The notes under the pieces are model-generated. The model saw only the letters and a list, made by a program, of their open reading frames with translations, made no database searches and was not told the origin of the DNA. Of a DNA stretch of 64,000 nucleotides, positions 9,922 through 53,247 are shown in pieces (within the stretch, counting starts at the first letter, position 1; each line of letters starts with the position of its first letter). Position numbers and translations under genes: made by a program. The stretch spans positions 62,001 through 126,000 of the forward strand of contig CALMYL010000012.1 of the NCBI GenBank assembly GCA_937873695.1, given 5' to 3'. The stretch is from an uncultured Ignavibacteria bacterium. Lineage in GTDB: Bacteria; Bacteroidota; Ignavibacteria; Tepidaquicellales; OLB5.

Positions 9922-10087
9922 ATAGTAATTAGCAATTAGTAATGATCAATTAGCAATTAACAAATATCAAATATCAAATACCAAATAGCATATAACAGAT
10001 AACAGATTTCAGATAGCAAAGAAACAAAAGCAGCATAAGTCGGAAATAAACTTTGGAAAACGAATTAAGCAGATATAGAAGATAATA
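9922..10087. repeat. Low-complexity intergenic tract between lolE and lolD
   Basis: The spacer consists of short quasi-repeats: AATTAGCAATTA-type units (about 9927-9960), then ATCAAATATCAAATA- and CAGATAACAGAT-type units (about 9961-10017). Similar tracts occur at about 50625-50670 and 51775-51815. No gene is supported in it. Confidence 0.6.
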
Positions 10088-20950: not shown

Positions 20951-21937
20951 ATGAAAATAATTACAGGCGGTGCGGGTTTTATTGGCAGTGCGATCTGCTG
21001 GAAACTTAATTTATCTGGTATTACGGATATAATTATTGTTGATGAAGATACCGGCGGAACAAAAAAGCAAAATCTTGAAGGTTTGAAATTCACTGATTTT
21101 GTTGAAAAAGATAAATTCTTAAAACAGGTTGAAACAGGTGCAATAAATTACGGAGTAGATTCCGTTTATCATATGGGCGCGTGCAGCTCAACCACTGAAA
21201 ACAATATGGGATACCTTATAGAAAATAATGTTGAGTATTCCAAATCACTTGGCAAATGGTGTTTAAGCAATAATGCAAAGTATATTTACGCCTCCAGCGC
21301 CGCGACCTACGGCGATGGCGCCAACGGGTTTGATGATGATATTGAAACTATCCCAAACCTTAAGCCGCTTAATAAATACGGCTTATCAAAGCAGATGTTC
21401 GATATGTGGGTAATAGAAAACAAGCTGCTTGATAAATTTACGGGATTGAAATATTTTAATGTATTCGGTCCCAATGAAACGCATAAAGGCAGTATGCGCT
21501 CAATGGTGAATAAAGCGTATGACCAGATAAAAGAAACAGGAAAGCTTAAGCTCTTTCGTTCACTTAAACCTGAATATAAAGATGGCGAGCAGATGCGGGA
21601 CTTTATTTATGTGAAGGATGCAGTTGATATGACATTGTTCTTTGATCCCATAAACGGGGAAGGCAAATACAGCACAGGAATTTATAATATCGGCTCAGGC
21701 AGGGCGGCAACATGGCTTGATGCGGCGAATGCGGTATTTAAAGCGCTTGGCAAAGAGCCGCAAATTGAGTGGATAGATATGCCCGATAATATAAAGGACC
21801 AGTACCAGTATTACAGTAAAGCTAACATGAATAAGCTCCGCCAGGCCGGATACAAAAATGAATGCATGAAGCTGGAGGATTCTGTGAGGGATTATGTTGA
21901 AGGATATCTTGTGACCGGTGAATTTCTTAAAGTTTAA
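20951..21937 (+). CDS. hldD: ADP-L-glycero-D-manno-heptose-6-epimerase
   Basis: Epimerises ADP-D-glycero- to ADP-L-glycero-D-manno-heptose, the donor for LPS-core heptosyltransferases. 328 residues of the extended SDR family. NAD(P)-binding GGAGFIGSAICWKLN is followed by DIIIVDEDTGG and the HldD-type NLEGLKFTDFVEKDKF. The catalytic segment is ASSAATYGDG followed by LNKYGLSKQMFDMWV (YxxxK). FNVFGPNETHKGSMRSMVNKAYDQI and RDFIYVKDAVDMTLFF are also family-typical. It lies beside the glycosylation operon that ends in a GT9 gene. Soluble, cytosolic. HldD is assigned over generic epimerases from the NLxxL and GPNExHKGxMxS stretches. Confidence 0.92.
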   Translation: MKIITGGAGFIGSAICWKLNLSGITDIIIVDEDTGGTKKQNLEGLKFTDFVEKDKFLKQVETGAINYGVDSVYHMGACSSTTENNMGYLIENNVEYSKSLGKWCLSNNAKYIYASSAATYGDGANGFDDDIETIPNLKPLNKYGLSKQMFDMWVIENKLLDKFTGLKYFNVFGPNETHKGSMRSMVNKAYDQIKETGKLKLFRSLKPEYKDGEQMRDFIYVKDAVDMTLFFDPINGEGKYSTGIYNIGSGRAATWLDAANAVFKALGKEPQIEWIDMPDNIKDQYQYYSKANMNKLRQAGYKNECMKLEDSVRDYVEGYLVTGEFLKV

Positions 21938-21942
21938 TGAAC

Positions 21943-22110
21943 GAAAAGCAAAACAAAAGATAGACACAAAGGCACAAAGACTCAAAGAGAAGCAAAATCA
22001 AAACAAAAGATAGACACAAAGACTCAAAGACTCGAAGAGAAGCAGAAGACACTCAAGATTTAAAAAGGAAAAACTTTGAGCGTTGGAGACTTAGAGTCCG
22101 TTTTGTGTTT
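21943..22110. repeat. Left block of nested A/B repeats around the GxxExxY gene
   Basis: Two A units of the type GACACAAAGGCACAAAGACT (about 21963 and 22014) and one B unit (about 22072-22100, AAACTTTGAG...TTAGAGTCC). A has an internal 8-9 base period of CACAAAG. B is an imperfect reverse complement of A, so A and B can pair as a hairpin. More copies lie on the other side of the gene at 22549-22930. Confidence 0.75.
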
Positions 22111-22139
22111 TAAATGATAAAAACAAAAGTTTTATTGAA

Positions 22140-22544
22140 ATGGAAATGAAAAAGGAGTTAGTCCCATTAAGTGATAGTGAAGAAGAAATTGGAAAAATAA
22201 TTGTTAATTCCGCATATAAAGTGCATTCTGCATTGGGCCCGGGGTTGCTGGAAAAAATATATGAGATATGCTTTGTCCATGAATTGAAGAAAGCAGGTTT
22301 AAATGCGCTAAGGCAAATTGATCTTCCAATCCAATATGATGGTATTATATTCGATGAGGGTTTAAGAATTGATGTATTTGTGGAAGATTTGGTAATATGT
22401 GAAATAAAAGCGGTCGAACATGTGAATCCTTTATGGAATGCGCAGGTATTAAGTCACTTGAAGTTGACAGATAAACGCCTGGGCTACTTAATTTATTTTA
22501 ATGTTGAAAAAATAAAAGATGGGATTAAGCGAATAATAAGATAG
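22140..22544 (+). CDS. GxxExxY protein
   Basis: 134 residues of the GxxExxY family (PD-(D/E)XK-nuclease-like fold, function unestablished). The name-giving motif is seen in SALGPGLLEKIYEICF. The nuclease-like core follows: LRIDVFVEDLVICEIKAVE, with Asp, Glu and Lys where PD-(D/E)XK enzymes have catalytic residues, then HLKLTDKRLGYLIYFN. The start may be ATG 22140 or 22146. The gene is alone and sits inside a field of nested hairpin-forming repeats (21943-22110 and 22549-22930). Members are often scattered in multiple copies per genome, which suits a mobile or repeat-associated cassette. Confidence 0.88.
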   Translation: MEMKKELVPLSDSEEEIGKIIVNSAYKVHSALGPGLLEKIYEICFVHELKKAGLNALRQIDLPIQYDGIIFDEGLRIDVFVEDLVICEIKAVEHVNPLWNAQVLSHLKLTDKRLGYLIYFNVEKIKDGIKRIIR

Positions 22545-22548
22545 AAAA

Positions 22549-22930
22549 AACTTAGAGCCTTAGAGACTTAGTGTCCGCTTTATGTTTTAATTGATCAAAA
22601 CAGAAGATAGACACAAAGGCACAAAGACTCGAAAAGAAGCAGAAGACATTCCATATTTTGATAGAAAAAACTTAGAGCCTTAGAGTCTTAGTGTCCGCTT
22701 TATGTTTTAATTGATCAAAACAGAAGATAGACGCAAAGGCACAAAGACTCAAAGAGAATCAAAATCAAAACAGAAGATAGACACAAAGGCACAAAGACTC
22801 AAAGAGAAGCAAAATCAAAACAGAAGAAAGACACAAAGACTTAAAGAGAAGCAGAAGATATCCAATACCTTGATAGAAAAAGCTTTGAGCCTTAGAGCCT
22901 TTGAGTCTTAGTGTCCGCTTTTTGTTTTGA
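22549..22930. repeat. Right block of nested A/B repeats around the GxxExxY gene
   Basis: B-A-B-A-A-A-B order: B units near 22551, 22668 and 22880; A units near 22608, 22731, 22781 and 22829. A typical A unit is AGACACAAAGGCACAAAGAC with a following AGAGAAGC. A typical B unit is CTTAGAGCCTTAGAGTCTTA followed by GTGTCCGCTTT. A-to-B pairs are separated by about 30 bases and fold into imperfect hairpins of ~30 bp. A longer period of about 120 bases joins the first two B-A sets. A 66-residue frame here is only repeat translation. Confidence 0.75.
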
Positions 22931-22953
22931 TTTTTGCTTGCCGCAAACACATT

Positions 22954-23718
22954 TCATCTAACGGCTTCCCATTCTTTGCTTACAGATTTGTTTTTGAAGA
23001 AGACTGAGAACGAATTCTTCGTCCAGTCGCCGAAAACTTTAATATAGCCGAATTTCCTGTATCTGCGGGGTGATTCATATACAAGCATCTCATTCATAAA
23101 TTTTATTCTTCCGCCGCCAAGTTTTTTTATTCTCCTGTAAAGATCGTAATCTTCACCGGCGGCCAGGAGCTCATTGTAGCCGTTCACTTTCCTGAAAATA
23201 TCGCTTCTTACCATCTGGCACTCACCTCTGCCCATACCCATTCCAATTGCATTAAGCATTCTAACGTAATTATTATAAAACCCATGGAAAATCTTATCCG
23301 ATAGCCTTACATCATCAGGGAATACATGGAATCTGCAGGTGAGCGCGTAGTTCTTTTCATCTGCAAACGCGGCAAGCGATTCCCTGAAAAATGACTCAGT
23401 ATCCTGAATGATAGTATCGGCATTCAGAAAATACAAAAATTCACCTTCTGCCGGCCGTGCCCCCGCGTTTCTGCCCTGGGGTATATTCTGTTTAACGCCG
23501 GGTTCGGCTTTCACAACTTTATCAACAAGAGTTGTAAGCAGCGTTAATGTACCATCGGTACTGCCGCCATCGGAAACAACAATTTCCATATTGTATTTTT
23601 CTTTCAGAAGGGGAGTGAATTGTTCCAGTGTCTTAACGATGAGCTTTTCTTCGTTGAGTGTGGGGATAATTACGCTTATTTTGGGGGAGTTTTGCAAATG
23701 CAGAAAATATTCTAACAA
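22954..23718 (-). CDS. Glycosyltransferase family 2
   Basis: 254 residues of a GT-A fold family 2 enzyme. ISVIIPTLNEEKLIVKTLEQF opens the fold; EIVVSDGGSTDGTL binds the nucleotide; GRNAGARPAEGEFLYFLNADTII contains the metal-binding DxD-like NAD. Later, GRGECQMVRSDIFRKVNGYNE and AGEDYDLYRRIKKLGG match the acceptor ED motif. A hydrophobic end is absent, so it is soluble or peripheral. The start is probably TTG at 23718; a TTG a few codons later is also possible. Likely part of envelope or exopolysaccharide synthesis. Substrates cannot be read. Confidence 0.85.
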   Translation of the reverse strand: MLEYFLHLQNSPKISVIIPTLNEEKLIVKTLEQFTPLLKEKYNMEIVVSDGGSTDGTLTLLTTLVDKVVKAEPGVKQNIPQGRNAGARPAEGEFLYFLNADTIIQDTESFFRESLAAFADEKNYALTCRFHVFPDDVRLSDKIFHGFYNNYVRMLNAIGMGMGRGECQMVRSDIFRKVNGYNELLAAGEDYDLYRRIKKLGGGRIKFMNEMLVYESPRRYRKFGYIKVFGDWTKNSFSVFFKNKSVSKEWEAVR

Positions 23719-50561: not shown

Positions 50562-50667
50562 TTACAAATCTTTTTGTATAATTAAAACCTGCCAAGTCAT
50601 TAAGACCTGGCAGGTTTATTAAATATTGTCAACTATAAACTATCAATTGTCAAATGTCAACTACCAA

Positions 50668-51702: not shown

Positions 51703-51804
51703 TAATAATTATTATTTCGCGCAAAAATAAAGTTCTTATGAATTTTAAGCTGCTGCTTATTAATATTCTATATCTGTTATTTGATTTTTGCTATTTGTTA
51801 TTTG

Positions 51805-53247
51805 TTATTTGATCTGGTTTCCGTCAGGATCAAAAACAAGCACTTCGCCAAATTTAGCAAGTTTATCTTTCACCGCGCCCGCATCACCTGATACTACTAT
51901 TGTAATGTTTTCGGGGTGAATGTATTTCTTAGCTGCATCCAGTATATCCTGTTTTGTCAATGCGTTTATGGCGCTGATGTATTTACTGTAATAATCCTTT
52001 GGCAGATTATATAGTTTCAGGTTAATAACCCGTGATGCAACCGCATTTGCGGTTTCAAGCTGCAGCGGGAATACACCCGTCATGTAATTCTTAACCGTTT
52101 CAAGCTCCTCATCGGTCACTTCTTCGCTTATCATGCGGTTCAGCTCACCAAGTATTAGTGTAATTGATGTATCGGTTACTTCGTTCCTTACATCAGTATC
52201 GACCGAAAAATCACCGGAATACAGGTGCGGATTGAAGTAGCTCCTTGCACCATAAGTAAAACCATGCTTTTCCCGCAAATTGTAGTTAATTCTTGAGCCA
52301 AAATATCCGCCCAGTATAGTATTCATTATTGTTACTGCAATATAGTCCGGATTGTTCCTCGGAATTCCGAGATGCCCGACCCTCAGGTTTGACTGAACTG
52401 CACCGGCCTTGTTTATTACATATACCTTTGTTGTACCGTCTGATTCATTGAATCTGAATGAATTCACCCTGTTAATGCCATCATGCGGCAGATTACTGAA
52501 CTTCTCTTCGGTCAGCTTAAGTGCCTCTTCAATGGTAATATCGCCAACAAATGCAATTATAAGGTTACCTGAGTAATAATTCATTTTGTAGAAATCCCTG
52601 AGGTCTTTGCTGGTCATATTTTTGACTGTTGCTTCAGTGCCTTCAGCGGGATTTGAATAAGGCAGCTCACCGTAAACAACCTTATTAAATTTCTTATCGC
52701 TTAAATGCCCGGCGTCATCTTTGCTTTGCAGAATTGAAGAAAGCCTCTGCTCCTTAACTCTTGCCAGCTCATCATCGGCAAAAACGGGATTCTGCGCAAC
52801 ATCACTTAAAATATCAATACCTGTACTCAGATGCTTTTTAAGCACAGATAGTGATATATAACTTCCGTCCCAGTCACTGCCGGCATTTATGCTGCCGCCC
52901 ACGAAATCAATTTCTTCGGCAATTTCGGTTGCTGAGCGTTTTGTTGTTCCCTTTGTCAGCATTTCGGCAGTAAGTGAAGCAAGTCCGTATTTATCGCCGT
53001 CATAAAATGACCCGGCGTCTTTAAATACCAATCTCACCGATACTGCGGGTATTTTATTATTTTCAATTACCAGTACATTTATACCGTTGGGCAGGGTTGT
53101 ATCAAAGTAGTCAGGGAACTGTACGTCTTTGGGCGGTCCCGGTTTCGGCGGCCTGGTTCTGTCTAATATCTCATCCTGTGCGTTTATATTTTGTGCCATA
53201 AATATTATTAAAAGTAAAAAAAATGTTATTTGTATTTTATTGGTCAT
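51805..53247 (-). CDS. M16 family peptidase-like protein, no HxxEH motif
   Basis: 480 residues. Signal peptide 1-23 (QNINAQ) and a Pro-rich linker RTRPPKPGPPKDVQFPDYF. The M16 fold is clear: TTLPNGINVLVIENNKIPAVSVRLVFKDAGSFYDGDKYGLASLTAEMLTKGT. Where active members have HxxEH, this has LTAEM, so the zinc site is lost. The R-Y motif typical of inactive partners (LREKHGFTYGARSYFNPH) is present. In two-subunit M16 enzymes one chain is catalytic and one carries R/Y, so this is probably the non-catalytic partner. Third of a run of three M16 genes. Confidence 0.9.
   Translation of the reverse strand: MTNKIQITFFLLLIIFMAQNINAQDEILDRTRPPKPGPPKDVQFPDYFDTTLPNGINVLVIENNKIPAVSVRLVFKDAGSFYDGDKYGLASLTAEMLTKGTTKRSATEIAEEIDFVGGSINAGSDWDGSYISLSVLKKHLSTGIDILSDVAQNPVFADDELARVKEQRLSSILQSKDDAGHLSDKKFNKVVYGELPYSNPAEGTEATVKNMTSKDLRDFYKMNYYSGNLIIAFVGDITIEEALKLTEEKFSNLPHDGINRVNSFRFNESDGTTKVYVINKAGAVQSNLRVGHLGIPRNNPDYIAVTIMNTILGGYFGSRINYNLREKHGFTYGARSYFNPHLYSGDFSVDTDVRNEVTDTSITLILGELNRMISEEVTDEELETVKNYMTGVFPLQLETANAVASRVINLKLYNLPKDYYSKYISAINALTKQDILDAAKKYIHPENITIVVSGDAGAVKDKLAKFGEVLVFDPDGNQIK

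Follow-up and report, generated by a model that had tools for sequence, protein, structure and literature searches.

At one place in the 64,000-nt window (the whole stretch of DNA analyzed here), a small gene for a GxxExxY protein lies among repeated copies of a short sequence and its inverse. Is this a mobile cassette whose protein acts on the repeats, as the first-pass annotation proposed, or are the repeats kept for another reason? To answer this question, we compared the arrangement in the window with the surroundings of GxxExxY genes in other genomes.

The cassette and its only gene

The cassette spans positions 21944-22934 and has the order A-A-B-gene-B-A-B-A-A-A-B around the GxxExxY gene, exactly as had been read from the letters. 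The B arms are indeed imperfect reverse complements of the A arms, with 73-84% complementarity. The features of the region are as follows.

20951..21937, + strand: ADP-glyceromanno-heptose 6-epimerase (TIGR02197, 1.6e-110), left border, outside the element
21944..21987, + strand: A arm 1, outer leader plus CACAAAG CACAAAG CTCAAAG (heptamers 21965-21987)
21994..22037, + strand: A arm 2 (heptamers 22015-22037)
22074..22117, - strand: B arm 5' of the gene, degenerate heptamers 22074-22096 plus outer leader (by eye, D2/D3 repeat families)
22140..22544, + strand: GxxExxY gene, 134 aa (TIGR04256, 1e-36; PF13366, 3.9e-35)
22551..22594, - strand: B arm directly 3' of the gene (heptamers 22551-22573)
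22594..22633, + strand: A arm 3 (heptamers 22612-22626)
22671..22714, - strand: B arm (heptamers 22671-22693)
22714..22754, + strand: A arm 4 (heptamers 22732-22754)
22761..22804, + strand: A arm 5 (heptamers 22782-22804)
22811..22846, + strand: A arm 6 (heptamers 22832-22846, partly by eye)
22883..22934, - strand: outermost B arm, four heptamers (22883-22913) plus leader
22954..23718, - strand: family 2 glycosyltransferase, right border of the insertion site, outside the element

Each arm in the window combines a ATCAAAACAAAAGATAGA-type leader with some two to four heptamers, most of them C[AT]CNAAG. The heptamers are separated by 1-nt linkers, and the inner period, first put at 8-9 nt, is therefore 8 nt in the window; at other loci it is 8-11 nt. 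The A-type arms form a repeat with a 50-nt unit. All 15 heptamer dimers in the window fall within the cassette (50 shuffled windows: mean 0.06, maximum 1). The nested layout is a local multiplication of the same sites and not a typical design, since the usual form is one A arm, the gene, and one B arm.

Like the window, the loci L225, L062, L068, and L036 have multiplied arms around the gene, and at L036 the whole cassette is apparently tandem-duplicated. Elsewhere in the window, positions 9922-10012, 50622-50667, and 51768-51813 hold solo arrays with a 7-nt period, built from another word (CAAATATCAAATA, CAACTATAAACTATCAATTGTC, and GTTATTTGTTATTTG) in a style like that of the S23 arms described below. 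A scan found no strong inverted partner for these arrays within 1.4 kb.

The cassette's one gene has no profile matches other than PDDEXK_3 and GxxExxY (PF13366, 121.2 bits against a cutoff of 22; TIGR04256, 125.8 bits against a cutoff of 35). Its assignment to the PD-(D/E)XK proteins was upheld by these profile matches, by the modeled fold, and by the residues E38, D78, E88, and K90 (E...D...ExK), which are invariant in 60/60 sequences. A structure model made from 60 sequences has a PD-(D/E)XK fold (pLDDT 91.9, pTM 0.85). The best structural match of the model was the Cas4-like SSO0001 (Z 9.3 over 98 residues, 3.4 A); next came a restriction-like protein (Z 7.6), archaeal Hjc (Z 7.2), and many nucleases at about 6-7, where a Z score below 8 is weak. 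A sequence search of the PDB returned no relatives of the protein (best E value, 0.16). Because the four residues are invariant, the protein is likely to be an active nuclease. It shares its fold and the E...D...ExK residues with Cas4, the archaeal Holliday junction resolvase, and other PD-(D/E)XK nucleases, but the cassette has no CRISPR or recombination context and its protein has no sequence relation in the PDB.

Inverted word arrays around GxxExxY genes

The first-pass annotation held that the cassette reading would fail if GxxExxY genes elsewhere lacked flanking repeats. We found inverted arms at 90 of 112 loci, compared with 3 of 205 controls displaced by 1.1 kb; an arm was scored when the 250-nt upstream and downstream flanks gave an inverted match score of >26. 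The loci came from 39 genomes (the window's own genome and relatives, with the gene in 34 of the 39) and, for 80 further loci, from a species collection. The contig scan of relatives covered the best 80 of 552 relatives, and the search of the genome collection returned mostly the best locus per genome. Four of 116 loci had no flanks, which left the 112, and both counts include L060, L067, and L077 twice. By record title, the hosts in the species collection are Bacteroidota, Ignavibacteria, Planctomycetota, Verrucomicrobiota, Acidobacteria, Chloroflexi, proteobacterial groups, a cyanobacterium, and others. In a scan for heptamer chains over the 116 loci, an A array lay upstream at 99, a B array lay downstream at 93, and both were present at 88; the opposite orientation was rarer (34 and 25). 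The association across phyla, the fixed orientation of the arms, and the use of one word per element are established.

Seven GxxExxY genes are present in the window's own genome (G000, 3.78 Mb). By eye, each of them has a matching pair of inverted arms, but the arms differ from gene to gene: one gene has CCCGCAAAGACGCAAAG and its inverse, and another has CACCACTAAGACACTAAGTACACTAAGT and its inverse. Five further arm sites in this genome (L011-L014 and L017) have no GxxExxY gene in view. By eye, L013 (~1880-2250, contig C12) and L014 (~900-1270, contig C8) also contain a repeat of ~370 nt with many TGAGAATG/CATTCTCA palindromes, near solo arms.

Across loci, the arms are rows of heptamers of the form C[AG]CN[AG]AG, A-type upstream and inverted downstream. 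The matching between arms fades 5-8 nt outside the first heptamer, and the usual edge is TTT[AT][AG]C before CAC. The linker pattern (1-1, 1-1-3, 1-2-3, 2-4-2, etc.) is identical in both arms of 48 of 88 elements, where 2,000 random re-pairings of arms gave 18.2 on average and 27 at most.

Such symmetry could reflect folding of RNA: in the transcript, the arms would pair into a stem that has the gene as its loop, for processing, stability, or termination, much like 23S rRNA intervening sequences, and they would be kept for pairing. The arms are inverted and close to the gene, and the same layout is seen around four-helix S23 genes, a type known from 23S intervening sequences; both points fit this explanation. 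The agreement between the arms does not. We compared 179 heptamers in 87 alignments, with heptamers chosen as perfect in the upstream arm only, and the downstream arm agreed at positions 1 to 7 in 98, 91, 99, 51, 98, 98, and 99% of cases and between heptamers in 65%. When both arms were scanned, position 4 agreed in 46%, compared with 33% by re-pairing. The base at this position is nearly free (A 259, T 114, G 105, and C 52 of 530), and its neighbors are almost fixed. Differences between the arms show no bias toward G-U wobble pairs (44 versus 51). Among 95 columns of orthologous elements, a comparison of few pairs with arms of equal length, 71 were constant, 17 had changed in one arm or irregularly, 6 had an arm-specific base, and 1 had co-changed. 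In these elements each arm drifts separately at N and in the linkers, and the words are kept. In addition, pairing does not need a common word across phyla. On the counts for N, linkers, and wobble, we rejected a pairing-constrained hairpin as the reason for the arms, and an RNA-level role is improbable. The repeats had been described as hairpins, and this part of the proposal did not hold as written. With a free fourth base, drifting linkers, and no wobble bias, each arm looks instead like a recognition word repeated in a row, its middle base being free.

If the arms are recognition sites of the protein, which word is used where? CRCNRAG arrays on both sides were lacking at 25 of 172 loci (a set that includes L060, L067, L077, L232, L246, L234, L259, and L257 twice), and part of these carry other dialects. 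With the eight duplicates removed, 164 loci remained. Class I proteins (G[PA]G[LM]LE) have CRCNRAG arrays at 107 of 135 loci, CACNAAT at 0, and YRCNGAT at 3. Class II proteins (G[PK]GFLE or GVGLLE) have CACNAAT at 8 of 8 and CRCNRAG at 0, and class III proteins (G[FYST]GFLE) have YRCNGAT at 10 of 12 and CRCNRAG at 0. The eight class IV proteins (GNGF[QP]E) have none of the three words, and two of them have CAGGATT-like arms by eye. One of the 164 loci had no readable protein motif. Of 202 displaced controls, 9, 2, and 2 had the CRCNRAG, CACNAAT, and YRCNGAT words. When 118 labeled loci were placed on a tree of their proteins, the word changed 3 times (shuffled labels: mean 16.6, minimum 14), and in the window's own genus alone, with 34 loci, it also changed 3 times (shuffled: 11.8, minimum 8); the patterns were written after the arms had been seen, and the tree tests a description and not a blind prediction. 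Three dialects occur in one genome in G009 and in G010. The word follows the protein subfamily and is not set by the host.

A parallel arrangement surrounds a different protein. S23 genes are known from 23S rRNA intervening sequences, according to the accessible text of PMC4990558. S23 (TIGR02436) four-helix genes outside rRNA have inverted arms with a period of 7-8 nt and other words. Such arms were found at 22 of 29 S23 loci in the window's own genome and its relatives (L138-L167; controls, 0 of 53) and at 27 of 30 loci in Flavobacterium-like genomes (L325-L354; controls, 0 of 58).

Array numbers and variants of the same sites

GxxExxY genes occur in 152 of 296 sampled genomes of the phylum, with one to twelve genes per genome. 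The dimer CRCNAAGRCRCNAAG occurs 1,351 times in the 152 gene-bearing genomes but 74 times in the 144 gene-less genomes. A backwards control pattern gave 108 and 118 matches, respectively, so the 74 dimers are at the control level. All 37 genomes with at least 10 dimer matches have the gene. Within the 21 families holding both kinds of genome, 0 of 5,000 within-family permutations were as extreme. The dependence of array numbers on the gene is therefore established. The strongest exception to the association is G062, which has nine heptamer dimers and no detected GxxExxY gene.

Two complete chromosomes have 30 and 33 dimer clusters and 6 and 3 genes. Gene-less arrays therefore outnumber genes, as in REPIN/RAYT. 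Among clusters with at least two arms, the order was A-B in 14 (gaps of 17-197 nt and one of 367 nt), B-A in 1, A-A in 1, and A-B-B in 1.

The word "cassette" in the original proposal was justified, since the same sites also occur empty or with arms but no gene. The window's own site could be read as 11 loci from 13 genomes of the genus (G010 was not comparable). A GxxExxY cassette is present in the window's own genome, G005, G009, and G003, and in the last two it has the plain form of A arm, gene, and B arm. G004 has B arms only, G002 has arrays with a solo B arm, and arms of this kind are missing from G001, G006, and G008. G011 carries a four-helix S23 gene there, flanked by inverted TGTCAAA arms of its own. 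At the CBS/CGL border, gene plus arms occur in the window's genome, complete arm pairs that lack a gene in G009, G003, and G004, and a solo arm in G005. G010 carries the gene with a left array only, G012 shows a remnant, and arms are missing from G001, G006, G007, and G008. The arm states at these two sites were judged by eye, and presence and absence are compatible with either gain or loss. These site variants are established.

Two other observations concern the CBS/CGL border. The gene-less arm pairs of three species (L183, L185, and L187) have a common internal GGGATGCAAA stretch, and in G002 (L184) the border holds a different insertion with a reading frame of ~284 aa.

At the asnS-rpoN border of Flavobacterium-like genomes, 24 of the 30 closest loci were readable (RpoN 93-100% identical to the query). 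CACNAAG arms were present at 4 of the 24, three of them with a GxxExxY gene by motif search. Gene-less inverted arrays built from other words occupy the remaining 20, and by eye these are of types b (6), c (6), d (4), and e (3) and one b/c mosaic (type a being part of the same by-eye series, a-e). The type b hairpins match S23 arms, with best scores of 54-68 compared with 30-35 at control places. Types c, d, and e were also considered as S23 arms, and they had no match to the 30 S23 loci compared. Closely related Flavobacterium-like species can have entirely different inverted periodic arrays at this border (L265-L294; the mosaic is L271).

Another possible history is homing only: the nuclease would cut arrays that already exist, the gene would be copied in by double-strand-break repair, and the arrays would be old landmarks, which the gene enters and leaves without transposition to new sites. 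Homing into existing arrays is the main rival to a mobile element. The CBS/CGL border, with arms plus gene, both arms without gene, and a solo arm, fits homing, as does the replacement of one array by another at one border in close species, including a mosaic. Homing also fits the lack of target duplications. Direct repeats of at least 6 nt flank 9 of 110 elements, compared with 6.8 by re-pairing, and a classical insertion sequence with target duplication is therefore unsupported. Direct repeats of at least 8 nt were found in 5, compared with 0.9 expected, and this excess includes arms repeated inside arrays. However, the gene-less versions could equally be deletion products. In addition, Sphingomonas parapaucimobilis has ~440 bp of arms and gene between fabD and fabG, where the spacer is ~34 nt in S. 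paeninsulae and 30 nt in Rhizobium indigoferae, which in these two species leaves no room for an array. At L247 and L252, arms and gene are alike (77% over 439 bp) in unrelated surroundings. For these reasons, we consider homing alone rather unlikely.

A further explanation is a resident, nonmobile nuclease with operator-like arms, which would be binding sites for autoregulation or genome organization and would have spread by ordinary duplication. The elements are resident at fixed sites across species and vertically inherited, and words are kept while linkers drift, as this explanation expects. However, an inverted array downstream of the gene and dozens of dispersed gene-less arrays are unexpected of an operator, and the presence of the element at orthologous sites is patchy. 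We therefore regard a resident nuclease as very unlikely.

A proposed element and its relation to known systems

On balance, and with a slight leaning only, we favor the reading that the cassette is a minimal mobile element whose nuclease recognizes the arrays at both ends and moves or copies the cassette. The element would consist of one small PD-(D/E)XK gene with an inverted arm on either side, both arms being arrays in which a seven-base word recurs; in the window, the words are CACNAAG and CTCNAAG at a spacing of 8-9 nt. The nuclease would bind the words of both arms as double-stranded DNA, bring the arms together, and cut at or beside the arrays. Repair, transposition, or homing into existing arrays would then move or copy the element, or a gene-less arm pair in trans. 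Such gene-less pairs would be nonautonomous passengers, and the extra arms of the window would have come from local multiplication of the same sites. We infer the steps of binding, cutting, and movement. Of the original proposal, a mobile cassette with a protein that acts on its repeats, this reading retains the cassette and the PD-(D/E)XK protein and drops the pairing hairpins and the nested layout as the norm.

Several observations count against a mobile element. There is no target duplication, and we detected no recent jump within a genome: in an all-against-all BLAST comparison, nearly all near-identical pairs were orthologous sites, with a few homologies confined to the element. The elements are long resident by vertical descent, and the separate drift of the arms at N and in the linkers is as expected of old residents. 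Genes are few per genome, absent from phages (0 of 50,697), and present in 7 of 72,556 plasmid records. Three of the seven plasmid records were inspected (Bacteroides finegoldii, Sphingomonas parapaucimobilis, and Bernardetia), and by eye both arms are present in all three. Loci without CRCNRAG arrays and the class IV proteins without a clear word also stand against this reading. Finally, we know of no lone PD-(D/E)XK nuclease that transposes DNA.

Insertion sequences carry a gene between terminal inverted repeats and have gene-less derivatives, such as MITEs. The cassette resembles them in both respects, with its gene between inverted repeats and its gene-less derivatives, but it has no target duplication and no known transposase, and its ends are arrays of a word with a free base. 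In REPIN/RAYT, according to the accessible text of Bertels and Rainey (2011, PMC3116915), short inverted doublets lie between genes, copies greatly outnumber genes, and there is one cognate protein. The likeness is in logic only: dispersed inverted doublets in A-B orientation depend on a cognate gene. GxxExxY is a PD-(D/E)XK protein and not a REP-associated tyrosine transposase, and the cassette arms are heptamer arrays with a period of 8-9 nt that flank the gene on both sides and occur in many phyla. The 23S rRNA intervening sequences are likewise small elements with one small gene, and their S23 relatives outside rRNA have inverted periodic arms. The GxxExxY cassette differs in that it has another protein, lies between protein genes (here an epimerase and a glycosyltransferase), and uses sequence-specific words.

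The literature searched, which leaves out preprints and most subscription journals, contained no description of such arms, and one may exist elsewhere. Searches there for TIGR04256, PF13366, IPR026350, TIGR02436, and PF05635 gave no description of such arms, and the only occurrence of six arm strings was unrelated. In the accessible text of PMC8934634 and PMC12085832, GxxExxY appears as a label only.

We tentatively propose, at a little short of even confidence, that these cassettes belong to an undescribed class of selfish elements. Its members would be one-gene cassettes with inverted arrays of words at 7-9 nt, in which the protein subfamily sets the word and one base is free. At least two unrelated proteins, the PD-(D/E)XK protein GxxExxY and the four-helix protein S23, would use this architecture, and a large fraction of the intergenic hairpins in Bacteroidota would be their gene-less arrays, which would take one another's place at a given site. 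Proteins annotated as GxxExxY or "four helix bundle" are widespread and uncharacterized, and the arms provide a handle on the targets of GxxExxY proteins, with one seven-base word per subfamily. If the proposal is true, the cause of a common type of bacterial intergenic hairpin would have been found, and studies could turn to a compact nuclease whose word preference can evolve.
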